A stretch of 64,000 nt of DNA from Bacteroidales bacterium (lineage in GTDB: Bacteria > Bacteroidota > Bacteroidia > Bacteroidales > UBA7960). The DNA is taken from positions 1 to 64,000 of the forward strand of contig PUKZ01000185.1 of NCBI GenBank assembly GCA_003550725.1, in the 5' to 3' direction. The notes below the pieces were generated by a model that made no database searches, was not told the origin of the DNA, and saw only the letters and a program-made list of their open reading frames with translations. A program made the position numbers and the translations under genes. Below, one piece after another: positions 11,973 through 27,187 of the stretch (positions within the stretch are counted from its first letter, which is position 1; each line of letters starts with the position of its first letter).

Positions 11973-12764
11973 ATGATTAACAGAAACCACTTTACAGCAA
12001 TAGTTTTAATAACCTGGATTTTGCCTCTTATTACGGCTTTCTCTCAACCTGATATATATAATCATCAAGCCAAAAATGAAAGTCAAAACGAACAAGATTC
12101 CAAAAAAATATTCCAAACTCTTACAGAATATTCGGGACACAAAATAGTTATTCAATTTACAAAAGGCGAATCTCACAATCATCCACTTATGGCCTTCTGG
12201 TTGGAAGACACTTCAGGTAGATACATTCAAAGTTTATATGTTGCCAAATCGATTGCAAAAGGATATTTCAGATATGGTGATGCTTCCACAGGCAGATGGA
12301 AACCCGGCCCATTAAGAAGACCTGCAGCTTTACCTTACTGGGGGCATAAAAGGGGTATAAAAGCAAACGATGGTTACTATATCCCTGCAAAAGACAGCCC
12401 TATGCCTGATGCTGTGACAGGTCCAACACCAAAAGCTGACTTTATCCTTAAAACTAATTCCAAACATAAAAAACCGGAAGTTTTTAATGTTATGATGGAA
12501 ATTAATCAATCATGGAACTGGAATCATTATTGGCATAACAATAAATTCCCCGATGATGAACACTATAAAACATCAAGTCAACCCGCATTGGTTTATAAAG
12601 CAACTATCAACATAAACAACCTGCTACCCGAGTATATTATGAAACCTATTGGTCATAGCCATTGGTCAGGCAAAAACGGCAATCTTTATGATGACCTTAG
12701 CACTATAACAACCGCACTTGATATTGTAGATGAAGTAAAAATAAAAATTGAAGTACCTGAATAA
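11973..12764 (+). CDS. Secreted hypothetical protein, possibly DUF2271-like
   Basis: Signal peptide; DAVTGPTPKADFIL and MEINQSWNWNHYW segments recall DUF2271; 11 bp downstream of the TonB receptor. Confidence 0.5.
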   Translation: MINRNHFTAIVLITWILPLITAFSQPDIYNHQAKNESQNEQDSKKIFQTLTEYSGHKIVIQFTKGESHNHPLMAFWLEDTSGRYIQSLYVAKSIAKGYFRYGDASTGRWKPGPLRRPAALPYWGHKRGIKANDGYYIPAKDSPMPDAVTGPTPKADFILKTNSKHKKPEVFNVMMEINQSWNWNHYWHNNKFPDDEHYKTSSQPALVYKATININNLLPEYIMKPIGHSHWSGKNGNLYDDLSTITTALDIVDEVKIKIEVPE

Positions 12765-12791
12765 TTTAGAATAGGTGCTTTAGTGATACAT

Positions 12792-13223
12792 TTATTCTGT
12801 CGGCATCACATACCCCTTTATTTTAATTATTTTACTGTTTTCGGGCGAGTTACTGTGAATTATAAGCCTGCGATTTATAGGCCCGGGATGCGAAGAATTA
12901 TAACTAATCTGAATAAAACCTTGTTTGCCGGGTTCAATTGCCAAACGGGGCCAGGAAGGAATTGAAATACCACACGAACTCCTTACACTGTAAACCTGCA
13001 ATGGTATATTACCTGTATTAGTTAATGTAATCTGCCTGCTTGTATTACTATGTTGTAATATGGTATCATAGTTTACAGTTTTAAAATCCACCATTAACCT
13101 GGGGTGATTTTGATTTATGTCTTTCTGTATATTTTGCGAGTAACAACTTAATGGAAAACACGGCAAAAGAATAGCAGCAAAACCTACAAAAAGCAAAAGA
13201 ATTATTTTTTTATAACCCATCAT
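12792..13223 (-). CDS. DUF1573 domain-containing secreted protein
   Basis: Signal peptide; VDFKTVNYDTILQHSNTSRQITLTNTGNIPLQVYSVRSSCGISIPSWPRLAIEPGKQGFIQISYNSSHPGPINRRLIIHSN. Confidence 0.8.
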   Translation of the reverse strand: MMGYKKIILLLFVGFAAILLPCFPLSCYSQNIQKDINQNHPRLMVDFKTVNYDTILQHSNTSRQITLTNTGNIPLQVYSVRSSCGISIPSWPRLAIEPGKQGFIQISYNSSHPGPINRRLIIHSNSPENSKIIKIKGYVMPTE

Positions 13224-13270
13224 TTATAGTGTATGCAATGATCCAATTAAGTACTCAATTTTAACTTCTC

Positions 13271-13843
13271 TTACTTTCCAAAATATTTTTTTGCAATATC
13301 GAAAAAATTATCGTACCACTTCTTGCCATATTTTCTAATAAGGGCATCTTTACAAAATTCATAAACCGTAACATTAAGTTTTTCCCCATATTTGCGGGCA
13401 GGGTCACAAACAGGCCATTTATGGTAGTTAACCGCATCAAAACCATTATTTTGCGATATCCTGATTGGATATAGATGGCAAGAAATTGGTTTTCGAAAAT
13501 TAATTTCCCCGTCAAAAAATGCTTTTTCTATGGCGCATCTTGCAATTTTGTGCTCATCATAATAAACGTAAACACATTGTTTATTATCAACCAAAGGTGT
13601 AGTCAGTTCGCCTTCAAAATCTTTAACATATAGCCCCTGCTGAGCAATTGCCCGCAAACTATCATTTAATAAATATGGCTTTATTGACGGATATATACGT
13701 TGTAATATATTGGTTTCTTCTTTAGTCAGCGGAGCTCCTGCATCGCCTTCAACACAACAATTACCAAGACATTTTTTCAGGTCGCACGTAAAACAGACAT
13801 CAAGCAAATCTTCAGATAAAATGGTATCATCCACAATTATCAT
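13271..13843 (-). CDS. DUF3109 family Cys-rich protein
   Basis: CFTCDLKKCLGNCCVEGDAGAPLTKEE and CHLYPIRI pattern typical of DUF3109. Confidence 0.8.
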   Translation of the reverse strand: MIIVDDTILSEDLLDVCFTCDLKKCLGNCCVEGDAGAPLTKEETNILQRIYPSIKPYLLNDSLRAIAQQGLYVKDFEGELTTPLVDNKQCVYVYYDEHKIARCAIEKAFFDGEINFRKPISCHLYPIRISQNNGFDAVNYHKWPVCDPARKYGEKLNVTVYEFCKDALIRKYGKKWYDNFFDIAKKYFGK

Positions 13844-13968
13844 AAAATAATATATTAGGTTAATTTAATCCTATTCTATTAATAAGAATTGACAAATTAA
13901 TATTGACATCAATTATGGTTGTTTTCGCATAAATTAGCAATAGATAACATAGCTGTTACCAGATAGTT

Positions 13969-14490
13969 TTAGCCTTTATTATTTTTTAAATTTAAGACAC
14001 CAAAAAGATAAGCACTAAAAACTATTGAAGTTATAATTTGCAAATACATTGGTGTTCCTATCAGTGGTTCTTTAGGTATCAGTATAATAACTGCCAGATA
14101 TTTTAATCCATAATAAAGTGTTTTGGAAGCCCAGATACTTATAAAAATACTTAAAAAATTATTATAACGTTCGGCAAGCCTATAATATAGCCACACCATA
14201 AACAAGAGTTCAATAGAAATCAAAATACTTTTCACAAAAATGGGATGGGCGGCAATTGCAAAGGAAACCAACGGAAGTGTTGCAGCCAAAGCATAAGCAT
14301 TGTAACGATGAGTATGAACAATAGCAATTATAAGCATCAGCCTCATGGGCTCAATTAAATATATTGGCAAACTCAAAAGATGAGAAAAAGTAGGTATCAA
14401 ATACACAAATGCAAGTGCAAAAACATTAAAAACAGCTGCTGTGACAGTTTTTCTAATATTAATGGTTGAAGTAAGCGGTATTATTTTCAT
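13969..14490 (-). CDS. Hypothetical multi-pass membrane protein
   Basis: 173-aa ORF, strongly hydrophobic with several TM segments. Confidence 0.6.
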   Translation of the reverse strand: MKIIPLTSTINIRKTVTAAVFNVFALAFVYLIPTFSHLLSLPIYLIEPMRLMLIIAIVHTHRYNAYALAATLPLVSFAIAAHPIFVKSILISIELLFMVWLYYRLAERYNNFLSIFISIWASKTLYYGLKYLAVIILIPKEPLIGTPMYLQIITSIVFSAYLFGVLNLKNNKG

Positions 14491-14610
14491 ATTTTTTTGA
14501 TTTAATATGATTTTGTATTTTTATTGCATACTTAAAATAAAGCATTAATCTTTTTCAAAATTAAAACTTTTTGTACATTTCTTATATATTTGTAAATAAA
14601 AAATAACATA

Positions 14611-15528
14611 ATGGACAGGAGAGATTTTTTAAAAAAAGGTTTTTTATACAGTTTATCGGGCAGCTTAATTACTACTGCATCAGGTTTTTTCTCTAATGTT
14701 TTTGGTAAGGGCAACTCATTGCCTGATTTGGTGGCAGTTAGGGGTTCTGACCCTGTTACTATGTATAAAAGGGGGATTGATGAAATCGGGGGTATGAGCA
14801 GGTTTGTAAAAAGAGGCCAGACAGTTGTTGTAAAGCCCAATATAGGGTGGGATGTTCCTCCCGAGCGTGCGGCTAATACTAATCCTCATCTTGTAAAAGC
14901 AATAATTGAGAGCTGTTATGAGGCCGGTGCCAGGAGAGTTTATTGTTTTGATAATACATGTGATAACTGGCGAAGGTCATATAAAAACAGCGGCATAGAA
15001 GATGCAGTTAATGACGCCAATGGGCAAATGGTGCCGGGCAACCAGGAAAGATATTACCATGATGTTGATATCCCTGGAACAAAAAAGCTTAAAAATGTTA
15101 AGGTACATGAGTTACTAATGGAGTCAGATCTGTATATAAATGTACCTGTGCTTAAGCATCATGGATCTACAACGCTGACTATAGCTATGAAAAACCTTAT
15201 GGGTGTTGTATGGGATCGCCGCTTTTATCACAGAAACGATTTACACCAATGCATTGCAGATTTTTGTCTTTTTGAGCGTAAACCAAAACTTAATATTGTA
15301 GATGCTTACCTTGTTATGACTAAAAACGGCCCCAGGGGCACATCTACATCAGACCTTACAAGAATGAAAAGCCTTCTAATATCTCCTGATATAGTTGCTA
15401 TTGATTCTGCCAGCGCCCGATTATTTGGCGCTGATCCCAATAATATCGGCCATATGCGTATTGCTGAAAAATTAGGTATTGGCTCACTTGACCTTAGCAA
15501 GCGTAATATCGAAAGGGTATATCTCTGA
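14611..15528 (+). CDS. DUF362 domain-containing protein with Tat-like signal
   Basis: MDRRDFLKKGFLYSLSGSLITTASGFF (twin-Arg); VKPNIGWDVPPERAANTNPHLVKAIIESCYEAGARRVYCFDN; LKHHGSTTLTIAMKNLMGVV. Confidence 0.88.
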   Translation: MDRRDFLKKGFLYSLSGSLITTASGFFSNVFGKGNSLPDLVAVRGSDPVTMYKRGIDEIGGMSRFVKRGQTVVVKPNIGWDVPPERAANTNPHLVKAIIESCYEAGARRVYCFDNTCDNWRRSYKNSGIEDAVNDANGQMVPGNQERYYHDVDIPGTKKLKNVKVHELLMESDLYINVPVLKHHGSTTLTIAMKNLMGVVWDRRFYHRNDLHQCIADFCLFERKPKLNIVDAYLVMTKNGPRGTSTSDLTRMKSLLISPDIVAIDSASARLFGADPNNIGHMRIAEKLGIGSLDLSKRNIERVYL

Positions 15529-15686
15529 TCGCAATAGCAGCAAGTTTTATATTCCATAATTTTTGTTAATGTTACTGAAAAGTGTTGAAGTTAATTCTTA
15601 AAAATTGACCTGTTTGATTTAATATATCAAATTGATGAAAAGCCAGTAATCAAAAAAACAATTTTTAAATAAAAAAAATTAAATAT

Positions 15687-17264
15687 ATGAATCTTCGCCA
15701 TTTAAAAAAACTTCGGATTATTGTATCATTAGTAGTTTTTGCTTTCATTCTTTTACTTTTTATTGATTTCAGCACTCCTTTTATAGATTCTGTGTCAAAT
15801 TTTTTCATACGCTTACAGCTTTTTCCCTCTATACTAAGGTTTTTTGCTCTTTTCTTTACTATTTCAGGGCTTGGTTTTCTTTTGATTATCCTAATTTCAT
15901 TATTCTTTGGCAGAGTTTACTGTTCTTCTTTATGTCCTTTAGGTACCTTGCAAGATATCATTATAGCAATATCGAAAAGGCTTAAACCAAAAAAAAAGAA
16001 AAGGTTTACCTATAGCCGCTTTTCAAATCGCATTTTAAGATATGGAATACTTACAGTTACAATATTATTTTGGGTTTTGGGCAGTTTGTTTTTGATCAAT
16101 TTACTGGACCCCTTCAGTAATTTCGGTAAAATTTCAGTAACTTTTTTTCAGCCACTAATTTATTGGATAAATAACTCAATAAACATTGTTTTAGAGAATT
16201 TTGGCATATATTCATTGAGGCCATTAGATTTTAAGAGCCTTCCATTAAATGTGGTTTTAGTGTCAACTGTAATTTTTTTGGTTATTGCTATTTTATCGGT
16301 TTGGCGGGGAAGGTTATTCTGTAACACATTATGTCCGGCGGGTGCAGCTTTAGGTTTAATATCGGAAACATCGCTTTTTAAAATTGCTTTTAATGAAAAA
16401 GCTTGTTCTGGTTGCATGAAATGCGAGCATGTTTGTAAAGCCCAGTGCCTTGACAGCAAAAACCAGTTTATTGATCAAGGTCGTTGTGTAAGTTGCTTTA
16501 ATTGTTTTACAGCCTGCCCTAATAATGGTTTTTACTATAAATACAGGTTTGCCGGCAAAAATAATTTTACAGACCCTTCTGATAATCATGGAAAAAATAG
16601 GCGTAATTTCCTGATATCACTTGCATCTGCTACTTTAGCCATACCGATTGTCAGCAGCAATAAACTTTTGGCACAAAGTGCTGGTGCCGGATCTATACCA
16701 ACAGGAACAAGTTATCCTGTGACACCACCCGGATCTTTAAGCCACAATCATTTTACAAGTAAATGTATTGCTTGTTATTTATGTGTCGGTGTATGCCCGA
16801 CTAATGTTATTGTTCCGTCGTTTTTCGATTATGGGTTGGAAGGATTTATGCAACCCAAGCTGGATTACCATAAAAATTTTTGCAATTTTGATTGCGTTAA
16901 ATGCACCGAAGTTTGCCCAACAGGTGCTATTACCAAGCTTTCAAAAAAAGAAAAAGCAACAACTCAAATAGGTATTGCCAAATTCATGCCAGAAAGCTGT
17001 ATTGTGGTAGTTCAGGGAACAGATTGCGGGGCTTGTGCAGAGCATTGTCCTACACAAGCATTACAAATGATCCCTTACAATGACATTTTTCTTCCCGAAG
17101 TTACTCCCGAATTATGCGTTGGTTGCGGCGCTTGCGAATATGCATGCCCAACCGAGCCATACAAAGCTATCTTTGTTGAAAGCAACTATAAACATAAAGA
17201 AGCATTACCAATTGAAGAAGCAAACGGACCACGTGAACATGATGAAGATGAGTTCCCCTTTTAA
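15687..17264 (+). CDS. Membrane 4Fe-4S protein: NapH/NosR-like N-terminus fused through an internal Tat-like segment to a polyferredoxin
   Basis: VYCSSLCPLGTLQD, LFCNTLCPAGAALG, CSGCMKCEHVC, CVSCFNCFTACP; internal RRNFLISLASATLAIPIVSS; then CIACYLCVGVCP, CVKCTEVCP, CGACAEHCP, CVGCGACEYACP. Confidence 0.9.
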   Translation: MNLRHLKKLRIIVSLVVFAFILLLFIDFSTPFIDSVSNFFIRLQLFPSILRFFALFFTISGLGFLLIILISLFFGRVYCSSLCPLGTLQDIIIAISKRLKPKKKKRFTYSRFSNRILRYGILTVTILFWVLGSLFLINLLDPFSNFGKISVTFFQPLIYWINNSINIVLENFGIYSLRPLDFKSLPLNVVLVSTVIFLVIAILSVWRGRLFCNTLCPAGAALGLISETSLFKIAFNEKACSGCMKCEHVCKAQCLDSKNQFIDQGRCVSCFNCFTACPNNGFYYKYRFAGKNNFTDPSDNHGKNRRNFLISLASATLAIPIVSSNKLLAQSAGAGSIPTGTSYPVTPPGSLSHNHFTSKCIACYLCVGVCPTNVIVPSFFDYGLEGFMQPKLDYHKNFCNFDCVKCTEVCPTGAITKLSKKEKATTQIGIAKFMPESCIVVVQGTDCGACAEHCPTQALQMIPYNDIFLPEVTPELCVGCGACEYACPTEPYKAIFVESNYKHKEALPIEEANGPREHDEDEFPF

Positions 17265-17500
17265 TGTTATTTTATAAAACAGTGTTTTATATTCTAAATT
17301 GAAATTTTTAAATAACAACCGAACATGCCGATCAACAATAGAAAAATACCAAAAAACTAACATTGTAGGCTTGTAAACACCTTTAAAAATATTTTTATGT
17401 GATCAAAAACAATTACCAAAAAACAAATAAATCAAATCTTCATCCATGAAATGAACAAATTGAACCGGAGTGTTTTAAATTAAGTATTTGAAAATTGGAA

Positions 17501-17587
17501 TTTATTTACTCACATATTTATAATTTAATTGGTGTTCGTTGTCTCGCTGCACTCAGCAGTAATTTGCAACTTTGTTATTTGTTTTTT
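17501..17587 (+). repeat. Dispersed ~86-bp intergenic repeat, copy 1
   Basis: TTTATTTACTCACATATTTATAATTTAATTGGTGTTCGTTGTCTCGCTGCACTCAGCAGTAATTTGCAACTTTGTTATTTG; near-identical to the reverse complement of 61603-61688. Confidence 0.85.
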
Positions 17588-17640
17588 TAAATCATTAATA
17601 ACTCATTGTTATACATTATAGGTAAATAATAAAAAAGCAT

Positions 17641-18807
17641 ATGCAAATAAAAGAAGTTAAGAGTTCTGCAGATAAAAAAGAATTCCTGTCGGTTCCACGT
17701 ATAATATACCGCCATGACCCTTATTGGATAAGCCATCTCGATCATGATATAGAAGCTGTTTTTGATACCGGGAAAAACAAAAATTTTCAAAATGGCGATG
17801 CAATCAGATGGATAATTAAGGATAATAACGGCAATTTAATAGGACGGGTAGCAGCTTTTATCAATAAACAGCTTGCATATACGCATGAACAACCTACAGG
17901 TGGAATGGGTTTTTTTGAATGTACCGATAATAAGGAAGCAGCATTTGCATTGTTTGACAAAAGCCGTGAATGGCTGGCTAACCGAGGAATAGAAGCGATG
18001 GAAGGCCCGGTAAACTTTGGCGAAAAAGACAGGTACTGGGGACTTTTAATAGATAATGCCGGATACCCTCCACCATACCTAATGAACTATAACCCGCCAT
18101 ATTATAAAAAACTTTTTGAATCATACGGATTTAAAAATTTCTATGAACAATATGTTTATCGCATACATAAAAATACAACATTAAACCCGTTTTTTGAAAA
18201 AAAATATCAACGGCTTATAAAACAACAGGGATATAAATTTGAAACCCTAAACAAAAAAAATATTGAAAAGTATGCCAATGATTTTATGATTATATACAAC
18301 GAAGCATGGAAAAATACACACAAACACTTTAAACCTTTAACAAAAAAAGAAGTGCTTAATATCTTTCACTCCATGAAGAGAATTATTGATCCCGATATTG
18401 TTTTATTTGTATACCATCATAATCGCCCAATAGCATTTTACATAAACCTACCCGAATTAAATCAAATATTTCGCTATTTAAACGGAAAACTTAATCTGAC
18501 AGGTAAACTCAAATTTTTGTATTACAAATGGATTGGAAAATGCAGAACAATGTATGGTTTTGTATTCGGTATTGTACCGGACCACAGAAATAAAGGCATA
18601 GAAAGTGCTATGATTAAAAAGTTTAAAGAATTATTATTAGAAATAGACCGGTATGATGACCTTTATATCTCATGGATAGGAGACTTTAATCCTAAAATGA
18701 TCAGGCTCATTGAAACATTAAACACGAAAAAAATTTTTACACTGGTTACCTACAAAAAATTGTTTGACCCAAATGCGAAATTTAAAAGGCACCCTGTCCT
18801 TTCTTAA
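17641..18807 (+). CDS. GNAT-like N-acetyltransferase family protein
   Basis: RIIYRHDPYWISHLDHDIEAVFD; C-terminal GFVFGIVPDHRNKGIESAMIKKFKELL resembles the acetyl-CoA binding motif. Confidence 0.65.
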   Translation: MQIKEVKSSADKKEFLSVPRIIYRHDPYWISHLDHDIEAVFDTGKNKNFQNGDAIRWIIKDNNGNLIGRVAAFINKQLAYTHEQPTGGMGFFECTDNKEAAFALFDKSREWLANRGIEAMEGPVNFGEKDRYWGLLIDNAGYPPPYLMNYNPPYYKKLFESYGFKNFYEQYVYRIHKNTTLNPFFEKKYQRLIKQQGYKFETLNKKNIEKYANDFMIIYNEAWKNTHKHFKPLTKKEVLNIFHSMKRIIDPDIVLFVYHHNRPIAFYINLPELNQIFRYLNGKLNLTGKLKFLYYKWIGKCRTMYGFVFGIVPDHRNKGIESAMIKKFKELLLEIDRYDDLYISWIGDFNPKMIRLIETLNTKKIFTLVTYKKLFDPNAKFKRHPVLS

Positions 18808-18848
18808 TAAAACATCCATAAAAACTCGCCGAAATATTATGAAAAAAA

Positions 18849-18880
18849 TTTGGGTATTTTAATTATAGACTTTACATTTG
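18849..18880 (+). promoter_or_regulatory. Bacteroidota-type promoter TTTG-N20-TACATTTG upstream of tRNA-Lys
   Basis: Matches -33 TTTG / -7 TAnnTTTG with a 20-nt spacer, 57 nt upstream of the tRNA. Confidence 0.6.
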
Positions 18881-18936
18881 CACTCCCAAAAAAACAAAAA
18901 GGTTCATAAAATAATAACACTTTAGTTTATTTAACT

Positions 18937-19009
18937 GACTCGGTAGCTCAGTTGGTAGAGCATATCCCTTTTAAGGATGGGGTCCTGGGTTCGAGTCCCA
19001 GCCGAGTCA
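18937..19009 (+). tRNA. tRNA-Lys(TTT)
   Basis: Full cloverleaf: GACTCGG/CCGAGTC acceptor, GCTC/GAGC D-arm, TATCC-CTTTTAA-GGATG anticodon arm, CTGGG-TTCGAGT-CCCAG T-arm, discriminator A, CCA not encoded. Confidence 0.97.
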
Positions 19010-19013
19010 CAAA

Positions 19014-19041
19014 AGCCCGGCCAACCAGCCGGGCTTTTTTT
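19014..19041 (+). terminator. Rho-independent terminator after tRNA-Lys
   Basis: AGCCCGGC-CAACCA-GCCGGGCT 8-bp GC-rich stem followed by a T run. Confidence 0.92.
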
Positions 19042-19133
19042 ATAACTTCTCGCCATAAAACAGTTTTACCCAAAAAATCATAAAAATGTATGAAAAAATA
19101 CACTTATTTTAAAAATAAGCTGTTTTTCTCGGG

Positions 19134-19165
19134 GTTGTGTATTTTTTAATTTTTTCCTATATTTG
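19134..19165 (+). promoter_or_regulatory. Bacteroidota-type promoter GTTG-N20-TATATTTG upstream of the radical SAM pair
   Basis: TAnnTTTG element at 19158-19165 with TTG 20 nt upstream. Confidence 0.55.
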
Positions 19166-19326
19166 TTATATACGGCTAATTAGGCTTTATAATTATCACT
19201 TGATAGGGTGAAAATTATATAATAATAATAGTTCATTTTGAACCGTTTTTTATTCTCATTAATATAAATATCACATTTAGTATTGATTTGTTGAAGTTTT
19301 AAAATAGGGAGTGAAATAATTTTTGC

Positions 19327-20493
19327 ATGAAAAAGACGTGCCGACGGGAATTTTTAAAGAAAGCATTAATTGGAAGTGCTGCTGTTGTATCTGTTGGTAG
19401 TTTTTTTTTTAATAGCAGGGTTTTGCTCGGTGGGGGTATTTCTCCTTCTGCGAGTTATGCACTTAACACATTCTCTTATAGTGGAAAGGAAGCCATGTTT
19501 TACCGGGCAGTTGACAACAACAGGGTGCAATGCCAACTCTGCCCTCACAAATGCACTCTTCGTAATGGAAGTAGTGGATTATGCCGGGTAAGAAAAAATA
19601 TAGCAGGAAAGCTTTATAGCCAGGCATACGGCAATCCATGTTCAGTCAATGTAGGTTTAATCGAAAAGGCACCATTGCATCATTTTATTCCCGGACATGA
19701 AAGACTATGTGTAGCAACTGTAGGTTGTAATTTAAGATGTAAGTATTGTCATAACTGGCAAATTTCCCAAAGATCTCCCGGTGAAATCAGGGAATATAAC
19801 ATGACTCCCGAAGATATTGTGAAAGAAGCGTTAATACAAGAAGTAATGTCTATTTCCTTTACATATACTGAGCCCACCATCTTTTACGAATACATGTATG
19901 ATATCAGTCGAATAGCCAAAAACAATGGTTTAAAAGTAAGTATTGTATCCAACGGATATATAAATCCTCAACCTTTAAGAAAACTGCTTCCATACCTTGA
20001 TGCAGTTAAAATAGATCTTAAGGCTTTCAGCGATGACTTCTACAGGGAAATCTGTTCTGCTAAACTGGATCCGGTTTTACAAACACTTTTGGTTTTAAAG
20101 GATGAAGGCATGTTATTTGAAATTGTTAATCTTGTTGTACCTACACTCAACGATAATCCTGATGAAATCAAGCAAATGTGTGTCTGGATAAATGAAAATT
20201 TAGGAGCAGAGGTGCCTGTTCATTTCAACAGGTTTTCTCCTTCATATAAACTGACTGAATTACCAACTACACCAATAAACACTTTAGAGTCAGCTGTAAG
20301 AATTGCTAATGAATCAGGGCTTAAGTATGTTTACATGGGTAATGTTCCGGGGCATAAAAATAATTCGACATTTTGTCCCAATTGTGGAGAAAGATTGATT
20401 CATCGAGTTCATTATTCGGTGAGAAGCAGAAATTTAAAGAATGGAAACTGTAAGTTCTGTGGCTATAATATTCATGGAAGATGGGAAGCATAA
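19327..20493 (+). CDS. AmmeMemoRadiSam-type radical SAM enzyme with Tat-like N-terminus, paralog 1
   Basis: TCRREFLKKALIGSAAVVSVGSFF; CQLCPHKCTLRNGSSGLCRVR; radical SAM CNLRCKYCHNWQISQ; FTYTEPTIFYEY; C-terminal CPNC...CKFCGY. Confidence 0.92.
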   Translation: MKKTCRREFLKKALIGSAAVVSVGSFFFNSRVLLGGGISPSASYALNTFSYSGKEAMFYRAVDNNRVQCQLCPHKCTLRNGSSGLCRVRKNIAGKLYSQAYGNPCSVNVGLIEKAPLHHFIPGHERLCVATVGCNLRCKYCHNWQISQRSPGEIREYNMTPEDIVKEALIQEVMSISFTYTEPTIFYEYMYDISRIAKNNGLKVSIVSNGYINPQPLRKLLPYLDAVKIDLKAFSDDFYREICSAKLDPVLQTLLVLKDEGMLFEIVNLVVPTLNDNPDEIKQMCVWINENLGAEVPVHFNRFSPSYKLTELPTTPINTLESAVRIANESGLKYVYMGNVPGHKNNSTFCPNCGERLIHRVHYSVRSRNLKNGNCKFCGYNIHGRWEA

Positions 20494-20592
20494 ACCATAT
20501 TATTTGGAATTAATAATTGAGCATAAAATGTTTTTTGCAGTAAGATGTTTGACATTGCTAAATAGTCCAATAACAGGCAATTAAGCTTAAGG

Positions 20593-21798
20593 TTGAATAT
20601 TATTATGATAAACACAAATCGCAGGGGTTTTATAAAGAAACTATTTATAAAAAGTATTGCCGGTTTAACTGCCGGATATTTATTGTTAAATAGTTATAAG
20701 AGGTTTTTTTCGGATTTAATAGCTTCCTCTTCGGAAGATACCGGATACAACCATAAAAATTACACCTATAACAAAAAAGTCAATAATAAAAAGGAAGCTA
20801 TGTACTACAAAAGGCTAGGCAGAAATAGCGTTAGTTGTACTCTTTGCTTTCACAACTGCACTATACAGGAAGGCAACACCGGGTTTTGCCGGGTCAGGGA
20901 AAACAGCAATGGCAGGCTTTACAGTTTGGTTTACGGCCTTCCCGCAGGTCTACAGATTGATTCGATTGAAATGGAGCCGATGTATCATATGGTTCCCGGT
21001 CATAGAAACCTGTGTGTTTACACAGCATCATGCAACTTCAGGTGTAAGCACTGTCACAATTGGCATCTTTCTCAAAGAGGGCCTGATGAAGTATCATACG
21101 AAATCCATTCTCCTTATGAGGTCGTTAATAGAGCTAAAAACCAGGGCTGTAAATCCATATCACACAGTATCAATGAGCCGGCTGTATTTTACGAATACAT
21201 GTATGATATTGCAAAACATGCCCAAAAAGAAGGATTGTTAACCCTTTTTCATACAAACGGCTACTTAAATCCTGAGCCATTAAAAGATATTCTGAAGTAT
21301 ATGGACGGGGTTACTGTCGATCTAAAAGCATTCAATGAAAGTTTTTATCGTGAGATCTCATCAGGCAGCCTCGAACCGGTATTAGAAACCCTGAAGATTA
21401 TAAGAAAAGAAAATGTTCACCTTGAAATTGTAAATTTAGTTATACCCACCTTAAATGATGATCCGGATGAGATAAAACAAATGTGTACCTGGATAATTGA
21501 TAATATAGGCAACTCAGTTCCATTGCATTTTAACAGGTTTTCACCCACATACAAATTAACAGATTTACCATCAACACCTGTTAATACCTTAGAATCAGCA
21601 GCAAATATAGCATATGAATCAGGTTTAAAGTATGTATATATTGGTAATGTGCCTGCCCATAAATATAACTCTACATATTGCCCAAATTGTAAAACGAAGA
21701 TGATCGAACGCGCTTATTTCTCGGTTTTAAGCAATAAAATGGAAAATGGAGCTTGTATATCTTGTGGCTATGAAATACAGGGTATTTGGAAAAGTTAA
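20593..21798 (+). CDS. AmmeMemoRadiSam-type radical SAM enzyme with Tat-like N-terminus, paralog 2
   Basis: NRRGFIKKLFIKSIAGLTAGYLLL; CTLCFHNCTIQEGNTGFCRVR; CNFRCKHCHNWHLSQ; C-terminal CPNC...CISCGY; high similarity to the preceding ORF. Confidence 0.9.
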   Translation: MNIIMINTNRRGFIKKLFIKSIAGLTAGYLLLNSYKRFFSDLIASSSEDTGYNHKNYTYNKKVNNKKEAMYYKRLGRNSVSCTLCFHNCTIQEGNTGFCRVRENSNGRLYSLVYGLPAGLQIDSIEMEPMYHMVPGHRNLCVYTASCNFRCKHCHNWHLSQRGPDEVSYEIHSPYEVVNRAKNQGCKSISHSINEPAVFYEYMYDIAKHAQKEGLLTLFHTNGYLNPEPLKDILKYMDGVTVDLKAFNESFYREISSGSLEPVLETLKIIRKENVHLEIVNLVIPTLNDDPDEIKQMCTWIIDNIGNSVPLHFNRFSPTYKLTDLPSTPVNTLESAANIAYESGLKYVYIGNVPAHKYNSTYCPNCKTKMIERAYFSVLSNKMENGACISCGYEIQGIWKS

Positions 21799-22019
21799 AA
21801 TTATAGCATATAAAAATCATTTTACAGCAGAAGAATTGAACTGATAATTATCTGCGATATAGAGACATTTATAATAATTAAATAATAAAAAGACAGTTTG
21901 ATGAGGGTTTGCCGAGCAAAAAAAAACATTAACATTTGTGAAAGGCAACAAATACCGCAAGCCCTATAATTGAAAACATAACTAATAAATAATTAATGGC
22001 TTAAATTAAAAATATTTTT

Positions 22020-24344
22020 GTGAAAAGAAAACTAATTTTTGCAATTGTTGTAATGGGTTTCAGCGGTATTATCGCTGAAATTGTTCTTTTGAGAGAACTG
22101 GTGATAACTTTTCATGGTAATGAGCTTTCAATAGGTGTAATTTTAGCTAACTGGCTGTTGTTAGAATCTGCAGGAGCTTATTTTTTAGGCAAAAAAGTTT
22201 CCAGGGCAAAGAGAAAGCTGGGTTTATTTATATTGTTAACAATCCTTTTTACAATATTTTTTATTGCAGCTATCTATGCTTCCCGCATCTTCAAAGATTA
22301 CCTGTCAGTTATACCCGGCGAAGGATTGGGTATAATGCCCATGTTTTACGTATCTTTCTTAATACTTCTGCCTGTAAGCTTATTACATGGAGCTTTGTTT
22401 ACCTGGGGTTGTAAACTTTACTTTCTTTATTCATCATCCAAAACTTCAAAAACTTCACAAGATAAGCTTAGCGCTTTTAGTATTTCAAGGGTTTATATTT
22501 ATGAAACTTTAGGGACCATGGTTGGTGGAGTAATATTAACTTATCTTCTTATACCTTACCTGCATTCTATAAAGATAGCTTTTGTTTTAGCGTTATTAAA
22601 TTTTATAATTTGTGCGTACTTAATAAAGCCTTTCTGGAAGCCTAATATTACTATACAAAAACGGCTTGTAAGTATATTTTTATTTAGCCTGGTGCCACTA
22701 ACTATCTATGTTATTTTTAGTTCAAATGCAGACCAGTTGCATTTTATGTCTGTAGAACAGCAATGGAAAAATCATAACCTGGTACATTATGAAAATTCTC
22801 ATTATGGAAACATAGTGGTAACTGAAAGAGAAGGAGAATACACATTTTTTTCCGATGGCTTGCCTGTAATTACTTCACCCAACCCTGATTTAGTTTATGT
22901 AGAAGAATTTGTTCATTTGCCAATGCTTTCACATTCCGATCCCCGTAATATCATGATACTCAGTGGAGGTGCAGGTGGCATAATAAATGAAATTTTAAAA
23001 CATGATGTATCAAGAATTGATTATACCGAAGCTGATCCTTTGTTACCAGAGGTAGTAAAAAAACATTCTACTCCACTGACAGAAAATGAGTTCCTTGATC
23101 CCCGTGTTAATATAGAAAAAATTGACGGCAGATTTTTCCTTAAAAGAGCAGCCAAAAACTATGATATTATTTTTAGTGGATTTACTGATCCGGCAACTTT
23201 ACATACAAACAGATTTTTTACAAAAGAGTTTTTTTCACTGGCAAAGAGCAGGCTCTCATCAGATGGTATTTTTATTTTGGGGTTACCCGGTTCTTTGACT
23301 TATTTAAGTTCAGAGCTGGCAGATTTAAATGCTATGGTACTTAATACTCTTGAAAGTGTTTTTCCATATGTAAAAGTTATACCGGGCGAGATTAATAATT
23401 TTTATTTAGCTTCCCGATCACAAAACATTGAAGATGTAAGCCCTGCTGAAATGATTGAAAGAAAAGAGGCGCGTAATTTGGAAGTTAATATGTTAACACC
23501 GGGCTATATAGAGTATAAACTTCAAGCCCGTTGGTTAGACTTTTATTTTAACAATATAGAAGAAGCTACGGATAATATTAACCATGACTTTAAACCCCTG
23601 GGAGTTTTTTATAGTTTGGTATACTGGAATGAAAAATTCTCCCCCTCTTTTAACAATATATTTAAACAAGGCGCGCAAATAAACTTATATTCTTCAGGGT
23701 TGGTTTTTATTTTATTTTTTCTGATTTTTTATACAATCTCTTCACGCAGCAAAAATTTCCGAAAACCGGCGCTTTCATTATGTATTTTTTCTACCGGATT
23801 TGCCGGGATGTTGTTTGATCTGATTTTAATTTTTGCTTTCCAGGTGCTTTTCGGTTATATTTTTTACTGGCTGGGATTATTGGTAACTGCCTTTATGGCC
23901 GGTGTAATGGTAGGTGGTATGTGGATGTCTTCTTACATTAAAAAAGCAGAAACCGCAGCACCGGCAATAATAAAGTTAGAAGTAGTTGTAATAGTTTTTG
24001 CATTTTTATTACCCTGGATATTTCTAAATGCAGGTCCTCTATTGGTTCATAAATGGTTTGATGCAACCCTGAGGATTATATTTTTAATTCTCTCCGGCAT
24101 ATCCGGGGTTTTAGTTGGAGCTGAATTTCCCCTGGCTAACAAAGAATATCTGAAATTGTCACCAAATTTAAGTGGTACTGCCGGTTTACTATACAGCTCC
24201 GATCTTTTGGGTGGATGGCTGGGTGGTATTATTGGTGGTGTATTACTTTTACCTATTTTAGGGATTTTTGAAACTTCTTTGGTTATAGTAATGTTTAAAA
24301 TTACCAGTTTAGCAATATTTATAATTGCCTTAAAAAAGAAATAA
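22020..24344 (+). CDS. Multi-pass membrane protein with spermidine-synthase-like domain (fused MFS/SpeE-like), GTG start
   Basis: N-terminal TM block (FSGIIAEIVLLRELVITFHGNELSIGVILANWLLLESAGAYFLGKK); central ILSGGAGGIINEILKHDVSRIDYTEADPLL...NYDIIFSGFTDPATLHTNRFFTKEFFSLAKSRLSSDGIFIL; C-terminal TM block. Confidence 0.85.
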   Translation: MKRKLIFAIVVMGFSGIIAEIVLLRELVITFHGNELSIGVILANWLLLESAGAYFLGKKVSRAKRKLGLFILLTILFTIFFIAAIYASRIFKDYLSVIPGEGLGIMPMFYVSFLILLPVSLLHGALFTWGCKLYFLYSSSKTSKTSQDKLSAFSISRVYIYETLGTMVGGVILTYLLIPYLHSIKIAFVLALLNFIICAYLIKPFWKPNITIQKRLVSIFLFSLVPLTIYVIFSSNADQLHFMSVEQQWKNHNLVHYENSHYGNIVVTEREGEYTFFSDGLPVITSPNPDLVYVEEFVHLPMLSHSDPRNIMILSGGAGGIINEILKHDVSRIDYTEADPLLPEVVKKHSTPLTENEFLDPRVNIEKIDGRFFLKRAAKNYDIIFSGFTDPATLHTNRFFTKEFFSLAKSRLSSDGIFILGLPGSLTYLSSELADLNAMVLNTLESVFPYVKVIPGEINNFYLASRSQNIEDVSPAEMIERKEARNLEVNMLTPGYIEYKLQARWLDFYFNNIEEATDNINHDFKPLGVFYSLVYWNEKFSPSFNNIFKQGAQINLYSSGLVFILFFLIFYTISSRSKNFRKPALSLCIFSTGFAGMLFDLILIFAFQVLFGYIFYWLGLLVTAFMAGVMVGGMWMSSYIKKAETAAPAIIKLEVVVIVFAFLLPWIFLNAGPLLVHKWFDATLRIIFLILSGISGVLVGAEFPLANKEYLKLSPNLSGTAGLLYSSDLLGGWLGGIIGGVLLLPILGIFETSLVIVMFKITSLAIFIIALKKK

Positions 24345-24595
24345 AAGTTAAGCAGATCAAAGCAACTTTAATAAACCATTCGAGCACTCCATTCTACTGA
24401 AAAACCCTGCAAAATCATATTTGCATTTTATAACTTTTATTTTTCAATCACTAAATATAACCGATATTACGTATAAACACCTAAAAATTCAGATAAAAAA
24501 AGTTTACTTTTGAAGCCACATAATAGGATTGTATGCTATATATATCTGTTTATTATCAAATAAATCACTTCAACTACAGGTAGAAAAAGTTTTTT

Positions 24596-27187
24596 ATGGT
24601 AAGCATTGATGATGGTATGAATATAAACAAAATATCTTTATCTTTTCCAAAGGATCAGGAAAAAATTTATCAAGATTATTATTTTAAAGATTCGTTGCGT
24701 GTTTTTAGAATTTCTTTTTTATTGGTAATATTGATTTATGGGCTTTTTGGTATACTGGATACTGTTTTCGCAACTGAAAAAAAAGAACTTTTATATCTTA
24801 TCCGCTTTGGAATTGTAATACCTTTTTTACTAATTGTTTTTTTGTTATCTTTTTTTGGTTTTTTCAAAAAAATATGGCAGTGGCTGGTATTTTCAGCCTA
24901 TATTATAGCCGGAAGCGGAATTGTAGCAATGATAACTCAAAAACCAGAGGATCACATATATTATGCAGGGCTAATGTTAGTATTTTCAGCCGGCTATTTT
25001 ATTGTCAAGCTGCGTTTTTTACTGGCATCATTGGCCGGCTGGTCTATTTTGCTGATATTTAATGTAGCTGTAATTTGGTTTTCTAATACTCCATCCAAAA
25101 TGATACTGGCATACAATTTTGTTTATGCCTCTGCCAATATTATAAACATGGTTGCAGCCTATTATATCGAATTTTTTAACCGCCGTCAGTACTACCTTTC
25201 ACGCAAGTTAACCCGAAAAAAAGCAGAACTTGAAGAATCTAATAAAAACCTCGAAATAAACGTAAAAGAAAGAACAAAAGAGTTAATTGAAAACGAAAAA
25301 AAATACAGAGATCTCGTTGAGGATATAAATGATGTAATATTTTCTATTAATTCTAAAGGTATATTCACATATATGAGTCCTGTAATAAAAAACATAACAG
25401 GTTATGCACCCTCAGAATATATAGGTTCTCATTTATCTTTTTTTATCCATCAGGATAACTTAAAAACACTATTAAATGATATTAAAAATTTAAAAGCGGG
25501 GAAATATTATCAAAGTGATTACAGGGTTAAAACAATATCGGGTAAAAACGTTTGGTTTAGAATTTCCGTAAAAAACGTTATAACCAACAATAATCCTGTA
25601 GAATATCGCGGTGTTGCCCAAAATATCACAAAGCGAAAAAATGCGGAAGAAGCTTTTAAAAAAAGCAACCGGCGTCTGCAGTCAGTTTTGCAATCGCAAA
25701 AAGAGATGATATGCCGGTTTAATTCTGATACCACTATTACATATGTTAATAATGCTTACTGTAAAACTATTGAAAAACCTGCAGAAGAGCTTATAGGCCA
25801 AAAATGGATTGATCTTGTTCCTAAAGACCAAAAATCAAAAATTGTTAATAAACTTAAATTACTTACAGAAGGAGAAGAGGATACAATCACTTACACATAT
25901 AAGATCAACTTGCCAAATGGCGCTTTCAGGTGGATGGAATGGACTAATTATATTATACGTGACAAGGCAGGCAGTTTTTTGGAATTCCAGTCAGTAGGAC
26001 ATGACATCACTGATACAATAGAAAAAGAGAGGCTTGAAAAAGAAGTAAAAGTTGCTCGTAGCACGCTTAAATTTAAACAAAACTTTCTGGCAAACATGAG
26101 CCATGAAATACGCACGCCACTTACCGGGGTATTAGGAATGGCAGAAATATTGAAAAGAAGCAAATTAACTCATCAGCAGGAAGATTATCTAAACACCTTA
26201 ATACAATCAGGCAATAACTTAAAGGAGATCATTGATCTGATACTGGATTATTCAAAAATTGAAGCAGGGCAAGTAAAACTAAAAATGAACCAATTTTCTT
26301 TAGAGAAACTTGTTAATGATGCTTCAAAGCTTTATACACCTTTTACAGATAAAAAAAATATTAAGATAATAACCACAATTAGCCCAAAAATACCAAAGTT
26401 AATAATCAGTGACAGCCATCGTATAACACAAGTTTTAAACAACCTTATTTCAAATGCCGCTAAATTCACCGAAAAGGGTAAAATATCGGTTAATGCTAAT
26501 TTAATTGACAGTTTATCTGAAGACAATGATAATATATACATCAAAATTGAAGTTGAAGATACAGGCATGGGAATTAATGCCGAAAAAAAAGAACACATTT
26601 TTAAACCTTTTTTTCAGATTGAACAGGATTATAACAGGAGAATTGAAGGGACCGGACTAGGACTGTCAATTTGTAAAGAACTTACAGCTATACTGGGAGG
26701 GGATATTGGGGTTGAAAGTGAGCCAGGTAAAGGAAGTAAGTTTTGGTTTACTTTTAAAGCCAAAATTGCACAAGAAAATGTTAAAAGTGTCAGGAAAACA
26801 AATTCAAATGATACTTTATCTGCAAAATCATTAAAAATATTACTTGTAGAAGATAAAATAGTAACTCAGAAAGTTGTAACAATATTGCTTAATTCAATTG
26901 GCCATGAAGTTGAATCAGTAAATAATGGTAAAGAAGCACTTGATATTTTTGAGCCTGGCAAGTACGACCTTATATTGATGGACATTCAAATGCCTGTAAT
27001 CGATGGCATCACTACTACAAAAAAGCTCAAAAAAAAGTATTCTGATTTGCCTCCTATAGTTGGCCTTAGTGCTAATGCATTTGAAGGCGACAGAGAAAAA
27101 TATATAAAACAGGGGCTTGATGAATACATCACCAAACCCGCTAAAAAGGATGATTTTGAAAAAATAATAAAGAAGTTGGGAATTTAG
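24596..27187 (+). CDS. Hybrid sensor histidine kinase (TM region, two PAS, HisKA, HATPase, REC)
   Basis: H-box NMSHEIRTPLTGVLG, N-box QVLNNLISNAAKFTEKG, G-box GTGLGLSICKEL, receiver LILMDIQMPVIDG. Confidence 0.95.
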   Translation: MVSIDDGMNINKISLSFPKDQEKIYQDYYFKDSLRVFRISFLLVILIYGLFGILDTVFATEKKELLYLIRFGIVIPFLLIVFLLSFFGFFKKIWQWLVFSAYIIAGSGIVAMITQKPEDHIYYAGLMLVFSAGYFIVKLRFLLASLAGWSILLIFNVAVIWFSNTPSKMILAYNFVYASANIINMVAAYYIEFFNRRQYYLSRKLTRKKAELEESNKNLEINVKERTKELIENEKKYRDLVEDINDVIFSINSKGIFTYMSPVIKNITGYAPSEYIGSHLSFFIHQDNLKTLLNDIKNLKAGKYYQSDYRVKTISGKNVWFRISVKNVITNNNPVEYRGVAQNITKRKNAEEAFKKSNRRLQSVLQSQKEMICRFNSDTTITYVNNAYCKTIEKPAEELIGQKWIDLVPKDQKSKIVNKLKLLTEGEEDTITYTYKINLPNGAFRWMEWTNYIIRDKAGSFLEFQSVGHDITDTIEKERLEKEVKVARSTLKFKQNFLANMSHEIRTPLTGVLGMAEILKRSKLTHQQEDYLNTLIQSGNNLKEIIDLILDYSKIEAGQVKLKMNQFSLEKLVNDASKLYTPFTDKKNIKIITTISPKIPKLIISDSHRITQVLNNLISNAAKFTEKGKISVNANLIDSLSEDNDNIYIKIEVEDTGMGINAEKKEHIFKPFFQIEQDYNRRIEGTGLGLSICKELTAILGGDIGVESEPGKGSKFWFTFKAKIAQENVKSVRKTNSNDTLSAKSLKILLVEDKIVTQKVVTILLNSIGHEVESVNNGKEALDIFEPGKYDLILMDIQMPVIDGITTTKKLKKKYSDLPPIVGLSANAFEGDREKYIKQGLDEYITKPAKKDDFEKIIKKLGI

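Follow-up and report, generated by a model that had tools for sequence, protein, structure and literature searches.

Gene content of the locus and the tandem radical SAM enzymes

The genes described here lie in a 64,000-nucleotide window of the Bacteroidales contig PUKZ01000185.1, the whole stretch of DNA that was analysed, and all positions refer to this window. A preliminary description had listed five genes, all on the + strand, encoding a DUF362 protein, a polyferredoxin, two tandem AmmeMemoRadiSam-type radical S-adenosylmethionine (SAM) enzymes (rSAM1 and rSAM2), and a polytopic protein with a spermidine synthase-like core, here called SpeE-MFS (MFS, major facilitator superfamily). It had been proposed that they form one membrane-associated redox/SAM system. 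All five open reading frames (ORFs) were found where they had been placed, and Pfam and NCBIfam searches agreed with the domain labels; only the start of rSAM2 was revised. The proposal itself held in part. Radical SAM enzymes tagged for twin-arginine translocation (Tat) and a SpeE-like polytopic protein do belong together and are conserved well beyond this genome, but the five genes fall into two units. The real module, well supported in silico, is rSAM1-rSAM2-SpeE-MFS (19327-24344).

The tandem enzymes rSAM1 (19327..20493, + strand) and rSAM2 (20605..21798, + strand) scored 365.9 and 343.1 bits against NCBIfam TIGR04337, for which the cut-off is 220. For rSAM2 the ATG at 20605 was preferred over the TTG at 20593 of the first list; it gives the N-terminus MINTNRRGFIKK. 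The CxxxCxxC cluster motif was present in 81 of 81 aligned TIGR04337 members, exported or not, and exported members, rSAM1 included, retained all accessory Cys motifs of the family. Since all Cys groups are retained, the exported radical SAM enzymes look active and are predicted to be so.

Twin-arginine motifs were found at both N-termini (CRREFLKK in rSAM1, NRRGFIKK in rSAM2), together with a weakly hydrophobic h-region. With this motif, this h-region and TatC encoded in the same genome, both window enzymes are probable Tat substrates, export itself being predicted. The term "exported" is used below in this predictive sense; for the genome counts N-termini were coded by hand. A set of 147 related genomes, 47 from the same family and 100 from other families of the order, was searched for the SpeE-like protein, the polyferredoxin, DUF362, TIGR04337, Memo, AMMECR1, and TatC. 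TatC was detected in 39 of the 42 genomes with exported enzymes.

In a tree of 119 TIGR04337 sequences, exported and signal-less enzymes were separated, with 5 label changes compared to a mean of 26 after shuffling. The window genes were placed within a supported set of 51 exported sequences; rSAM1 and rSAM2 belong to two different supported groups, with 13 and 11 exported members. Near SpeE-MFS, 71 of 85 TIGR04337 genes exceeded a simple hydrophobicity threshold at the N-terminus; among the remaining 14, 13 carried RR/KR-x-F/L/I and one lacked any extension. The threshold was exceeded by 13 of 34 genes away from SpeE-MFS, mostly in genomes with SpeE-MFS elsewhere or with a truncated contig. 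Named loci partly duplicate contigs of the genome loci (e.g., L092 and L048), and these signal counts, like the neighbor counts below, are not independent. Chance N-terminal hydrophobicity was rejected as an explanation, since the TIGR04337 genes that lack a signal are the ones unconnected with SpeE-MFS. In several paralogs the twin arginine was followed by a lipobox-like Cys. The radical SAM paralogs of L052 (G020), L039 (G096), L095, and L171 had a simple hydrophobic anchor at the N-terminus and no twin-arginine signal.

A scan for sigma-70 promoters was uninformative, with 48 candidates where 47 were expected. Upstream of rSAM1, at 19135-19165, a TTG is followed after 20 bases by TATATTTG, which resembles the Bacteroidota promoter, with TTG at -33 and TAnnTTTG at -7.

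The SpeE-MFS membrane protein

The third gene of the module (22020..24344, + strand) encodes a protein matching Spermine_synth (PF01564, 1.9e-25). The AlphaFold2 model (predicted local distance difference test score, pLDDT, 87; predicted template-modelling score, pTM, 0.87) contained seven helices before the spermidine synthase fold and about seven after it, so arranged that two six-helix MFS-like repeats flank the seventh transmembrane (TM) helix, the SpeE-like domain, and the eighth. Helices 1-6 were homologous to helices 9-14 (hhalign probability 97.6, E 3.9e-12). The C-terminal half was also modelled in isolation (pLDDT 89), and its listed Foldseek neighbors were almost all MFS-type carriers, e.g., FLVCR, ferroportin, and SLC37 (prob 0.91-1.00, at weak E-values). 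The membrane half had no match in PDB by sequence.

The spermidine synthase-fold domain (residues 241-550; 22740..23669, + strand) was recognized by PF01564 and Foldseek. The positive-inside rule was obeyed in 88 of 88 homologs, with 21.9 Lys + Arg inside and 1.6 outside, and with both termini in the cytoplasm. Based on this charge pattern the SpeE-like domain is placed on the outer side of the membrane, and its extracytoplasmic orientation is well supported as an in silico prediction.

In spermidine synthases one Asp acts as the general base and the Asp of GGGDGG binds the amine. The fold of the SpeE-like domain is close to that of aminopropyltransferases (Foldseek TMt about 0.72-0.74); however, the window protein has A318 and G387 at the two polyamine-specific Asp positions, and retains E337 and D369, the nucleoside-binding acids. 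The catalytic position was occupied by G/N/H and the amine-binding position by A/V/I/M and others; Asp was found in 0 of 88 homologs, and E337 and D369 were kept in 87 and 88 of the 88, respectively. SpeE-MFS also scored below curated NCBIfam cut-offs (105.6 of 249.55 for speE, 177.3 of 472 for PRK03612); the subfamily model NF037959 (fused MFS/spermidine synthase) gave 43.6 bits against 40, with a match spanning residues 327-453 only. These active-site residues led to rejection of a polyamine synthase role. The expectation that the SpeE-like core binds decarboxylated SAM was weakened accordingly: the fold was confirmed, but the residue that would hold the aminopropyl amine is lost. The outward orientation of this domain and the MFS-like architecture are both additions to the preliminary description, as is the exported Memo-AMMECR1 fusion of relatives described below.

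In eight loci (L035, L037, L046, L051, L058, L063, L066, and L068) SpeE-MFS had some 100-130 extra N-terminal residues with TM helices and a conserved His. These extensions gave a sub-threshold DUF4405 match only and may represent a fused haem b module.

Conservation and distribution of the module

Within the family, the conserved unit had one to three radical SAM genes in tandem ahead of the SpeE-like gene. Elsewhere in the order, it combined a single radical SAM gene with the SpeE-like gene and a Memo-AMMECR1 fusion. Exported TIGR04337 enzymes were found in 42 of the 147 genomes, SpeE-MFS in 41, and both in 40. The enzyme occurred without SpeE-MFS in G012 (73% complete) and G116, and SpeE-MFS without the enzyme in G092, where the gene is at a contig end. 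The loci of G116 (L032, L190) also hold a signal-bearing Memo-AMMECR1 fusion, and this genome has no SpeE-MFS. The distances between SpeE-MFS proteins correlated with those between the nearest TIGR04337 enzymes (r 0.68, 50 loci; r 0.57 for 25 named loci, with 0.24 as the best of 2000 shuffles).

Neither Memo nor AMMECR1 had been noticed in the window, and the proteins encoded at 11973-27187, the part scanned protein by protein, had no match to either family in Pfam or NCBIfam. The possibility raised earlier that both genes lie elsewhere in the genome was borne out for one of them. The genome has a single Memo gene (C17:39204), immediately after a third, signal-less TIGR04337 gene, indicating that a cytosolic pair coexists with the exported module. 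AMMECR1 was found in neither this genome nor any of the 47 family genomes and was present in 48 of the 100 others, which argues against an assembly gap. Memo and its radical SAM partner persist in many genomes of the family despite the absence of AMMECR1.

Outside the family, a Memo-AMMECR1 fusion, recognized by ORF length, was present in 26 of 28 genomes with SpeE-MFS and in 11 of 72 others. Signal peptides were assigned by script to 25 of 27 fusions near SpeE-MFS and to 0 of 9 stand-alone Memo proteins; of the two misses, L182 proved by eye to be a parsing error, and in L151 the start is uncertain. For other families of the order, an exported AmmeMemoRadiSam set is thus predicted. A distant Memo-like family (about 365-410 aa, roughly 70-95 bits), unlike both Memo forms, was seen at G085:C150, G120:C3, G142:C1:31035, and G058:C113, among others.

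A wider scan covered a single genome from each species. Among the matches listed, SpeE-MFS was found in Bacteroidota, Cloacimonadota, WOR-3, Clostridia, Chloroflexi, Deltaproteobacteria, Omnitrophota, Spirochaetia, Thermodesulfovibrio, Latescibacterota, Lentisphaeria, and other metagenome-assembled genomes. Of the named SpeE-MFS loci, 65 were clear of contig ends, and at 50 of these a radical SAM gene lay within 1.5 kb: TIGR04337 at 27, a second radical SAM family at 19, both at one, and others at three. Most of these enzymes had Tat, lipoprotein, or anchor N-termini, and the pairing of predicted exported radical SAM enzymes with SpeE-MFS appears to extend to anaerobes of more than ten phyla. 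The second family (about 365 residues, motif HCNLRCVFCQNW) had no NCBIfam match and is presumably COG1313/PflX-like. Its members also carry Tat, lipoprotein, or anchor N-termini and adjoin SpeE-MFS like the window enzymes, but represent a different radical SAM family that is absent from the window. They were found directly after SpeE-MFS at L099, L101-L103, L105, L107, L108, L110, L111, L114, L120, L129, L139, L141, and L150, in many phyla.

Proposed function, alternatives, and related systems

A possible mechanism can be outlined. The radical SAM enzymes would fold and acquire their Fe-S clusters in the cytoplasm; Tat would then translocate them across the inner membrane, on whose outer face they would stay anchored or become lipoproteins. 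SpeE-MFS would be a major-facilitator-type carrier whose central linker bears a nucleoside-binding SpeE-like domain on the same face; it may supply SAM to the exported enzymes and/or retrieve 5'-deoxyadenosine or methionine from radical SAM turnover. In related families a signal-bearing Memo-AMMECR1 fusion would complete the exported set, and the family of the window would run without it. It is highly probable, on the in silico evidence, that the gene unit, export signals, topology, fold, and loss of polyamine catalysis are all correct. We consider it somewhat probable that this is an extracytoplasmic radical SAM system in which SpeE-MFS supplies SAM or recovers products; the transport task itself, SAM supply or product recovery, is a serious possibility that falls a little short of probable. 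We suggest only tentatively that radical SAM chemistry takes place outside the cytoplasm in anaerobes of many phyla, with Tat-exported enzymes of two families and a dedicated SAM-delivering MFS carrier. As part of the same tentative suggestion, the carrier may take SAM through the membrane in exchange for 5'-deoxyadenosine or methionine.

Several observations weigh against an exported system of this kind. A SAM pool outside the cytoplasm is not known, and Foldseek E-values for the MFS half were weak (best 0.063). KR replaces RR in many relatives, 3 of the 42 draft genomes with exported enzymes yielded no TatC, and G116 has such an enzyme and yet no SpeE-MFS. No radical SAM gene was found within 1.5 kb at 15 of the 65 SpeE-MFS loci, many of them from Omnitrophota; in L132, L134, L140, L144, L146, and L155 of that group, SpeE-MFS lies in or beside a GalT-GAPDH-PGK-TPI glycolytic cluster with no radical SAM neighbor. 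At L117, SpeE-MFS adjoins a signal-less SPASM enzyme, which was missed by the loose profile.

The same exported module could be read differently, with SpeE-MFS as a group-transfer enzyme that acts on the radical SAM product or a membrane substrate and uses a SAM-like nucleoside outside. The retention of E337 and D369 in an extracytoplasmic domain is consistent with this, as is the tracking of radical SAM genes by SpeE-MFS. However, both Asp residues of polyamine catalysis are lost in all homologs, the rest of the protein is an MFS-like 6+6 repeat for which an enzyme has no need, and an outside nucleoside donor would still have to be supplied. We regard an enzymatic role as unlikely.

It is improbable that the radical SAM enzymes are cytoplasmic, with an N-terminal segment that is just an anchor or a non-functional signal, and that SpeE-MFS exports their product. 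A product exporter beside a biosynthetic enzyme would be an ordinary arrangement, and KR variants are common, but the window genes have RR-x-F/L/I followed by low hydrophobicity, and the positive N-terminus ahead of a single TM helix implies that the C-terminus is outside. The lipobox-like Cys of several paralogs and the signal peptides of the Memo-AMMECR1 partner likewise argue for export.

The remaining two genes bear on the original five-gene proposal, in which the polyferredoxin would be the electron donor. The DUF362 protein (14611..15528, + strand; PF04015, 1.2e-50) is Tat-tagged with MDRRDFLKK at its N-terminus. The polyferredoxin (15687..17264, + strand; NapH/NapG-like ferredoxin domains in Pfam and NCBIfam) consists of a NapH half, an internal twin-arginine TM segment with NRRNFLISL, and a NapG half. 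NapH-NapG polyferredoxins are a known dual Sec/Tat family (PFD; Tooke et al., 2017, PMC5449189). The window gene at 15687-17264 shares this architecture with PFD, but here it is only a neighbor of the module and is partnered with DUF362. These two genes adjoin in most of the 147 relatives holding both, with or without the SAM module, and make up a conserved pair of their own that is not part of it. Wherever both could be located in another genome, the pair was on contigs other than the rSAM/SpeE cluster, and DUF362 was beside the module in the window only, in 0 of the 60 other neighborhoods examined. Between the two units of the window lie a tRNA-Lys(ttt) (18937..19010, + strand; ARAGORN) and, directly 3' of it, a terminator-like GC-rich hairpin with a T-run (19011..19041, + strand; AAAAGCCCGGC-N5-GCCGGGCTTTTTTT), which sets the module apart from the upstream unit. 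This break, and with it the presence of at least two units, had been recognized previously. A 388-aa gene at 17641, previously described as GNAT-like, had no match in Pfam or NCBIfam.

The co-occurrence expected for all five genes was observed for radical SAM and SpeE-MFS genes only; DUF362 and polyferredoxin did not track them. Most genomes of the family have this pair, irrespective of the module; polyferredoxin was detected in 11 of the 13 that encode SpeE-MFS and in 27 of the 34 that do not (p = 1). DUF362 was missing from 13 of 41 module genomes, and 35 genomes had DUF362 but no module. Outside the family DUF362 did occur more often with SpeE-MFS (16 of 28 genomes vs 9 of 72 others), in statistics that ignore phylogeny. 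The neighboring polyferredoxin would deliver electrons to the correct face of the membrane, yet it does not track the module, and with 13 of 41 module genomes lacking DUF362, a donor role for the polyferredoxin is a guess. Genome co-location and co-occurrence led to rejection of a single five-gene module, and a redox/SAM system of all five genes with this donor is quite improbable despite their adjacency in the window. Least probable is a polyamine exporter or synthase with unrelated or merely co-regulated radical SAM neighbors: homology annotation as a polyamine aminopropyltransferase or fused MFS/spermidine synthase and the Omnitrophota cluster point that way, but the general-base and amine-binding Asp are absent in 88 of 88 homologs and co-occurrence with exported radical SAM enzymes is near one-to-one.

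Among the closest known systems is AmmeMemoRadiSam (TIGR04337 with Memo, PF01875, and AMMECR1, PF01871), which shares the radical SAM family and all its Cys motifs and whose fused partners adjoin the module in related families. The window enzymes differ in that they carry Tat signals and occur in tandem; their partner is SpeE-MFS, exported Memo and AMMECR1 are lacking, and the genome encodes the cytosolic version separately. NF037959 and the membrane polyamine aminopropyltransferase PRK03612 (NF002956) also join a SpeE fold to MFS-like or seven-helix membrane parts. In contrast to these, the SpeE domain of the window protein is inserted between two MFS-like halves, is predicted to be extracytoplasmic, has lost both Asp residues, and is tied to exported radical SAM genes. 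The component families are known; neither a description of the exported combination nor any other exported radical SAM system was found in the open literature, subscription papers and preprints being outside the search.

Radical SAM enzymes are taken to act in the cytoplasm, where SAM and low-potential reductants are. If the proposed system is correct, SAM radical chemistry would take place on the cell-envelope side, with its own carrier-like protein, over many phyla. It would point to a carrier class for SAM and would provide a handle on the uncharacterised Memo/AMMECR1/radical SAM trio, to two parts of which human MEMO1 and AMMECR1 are homologous.

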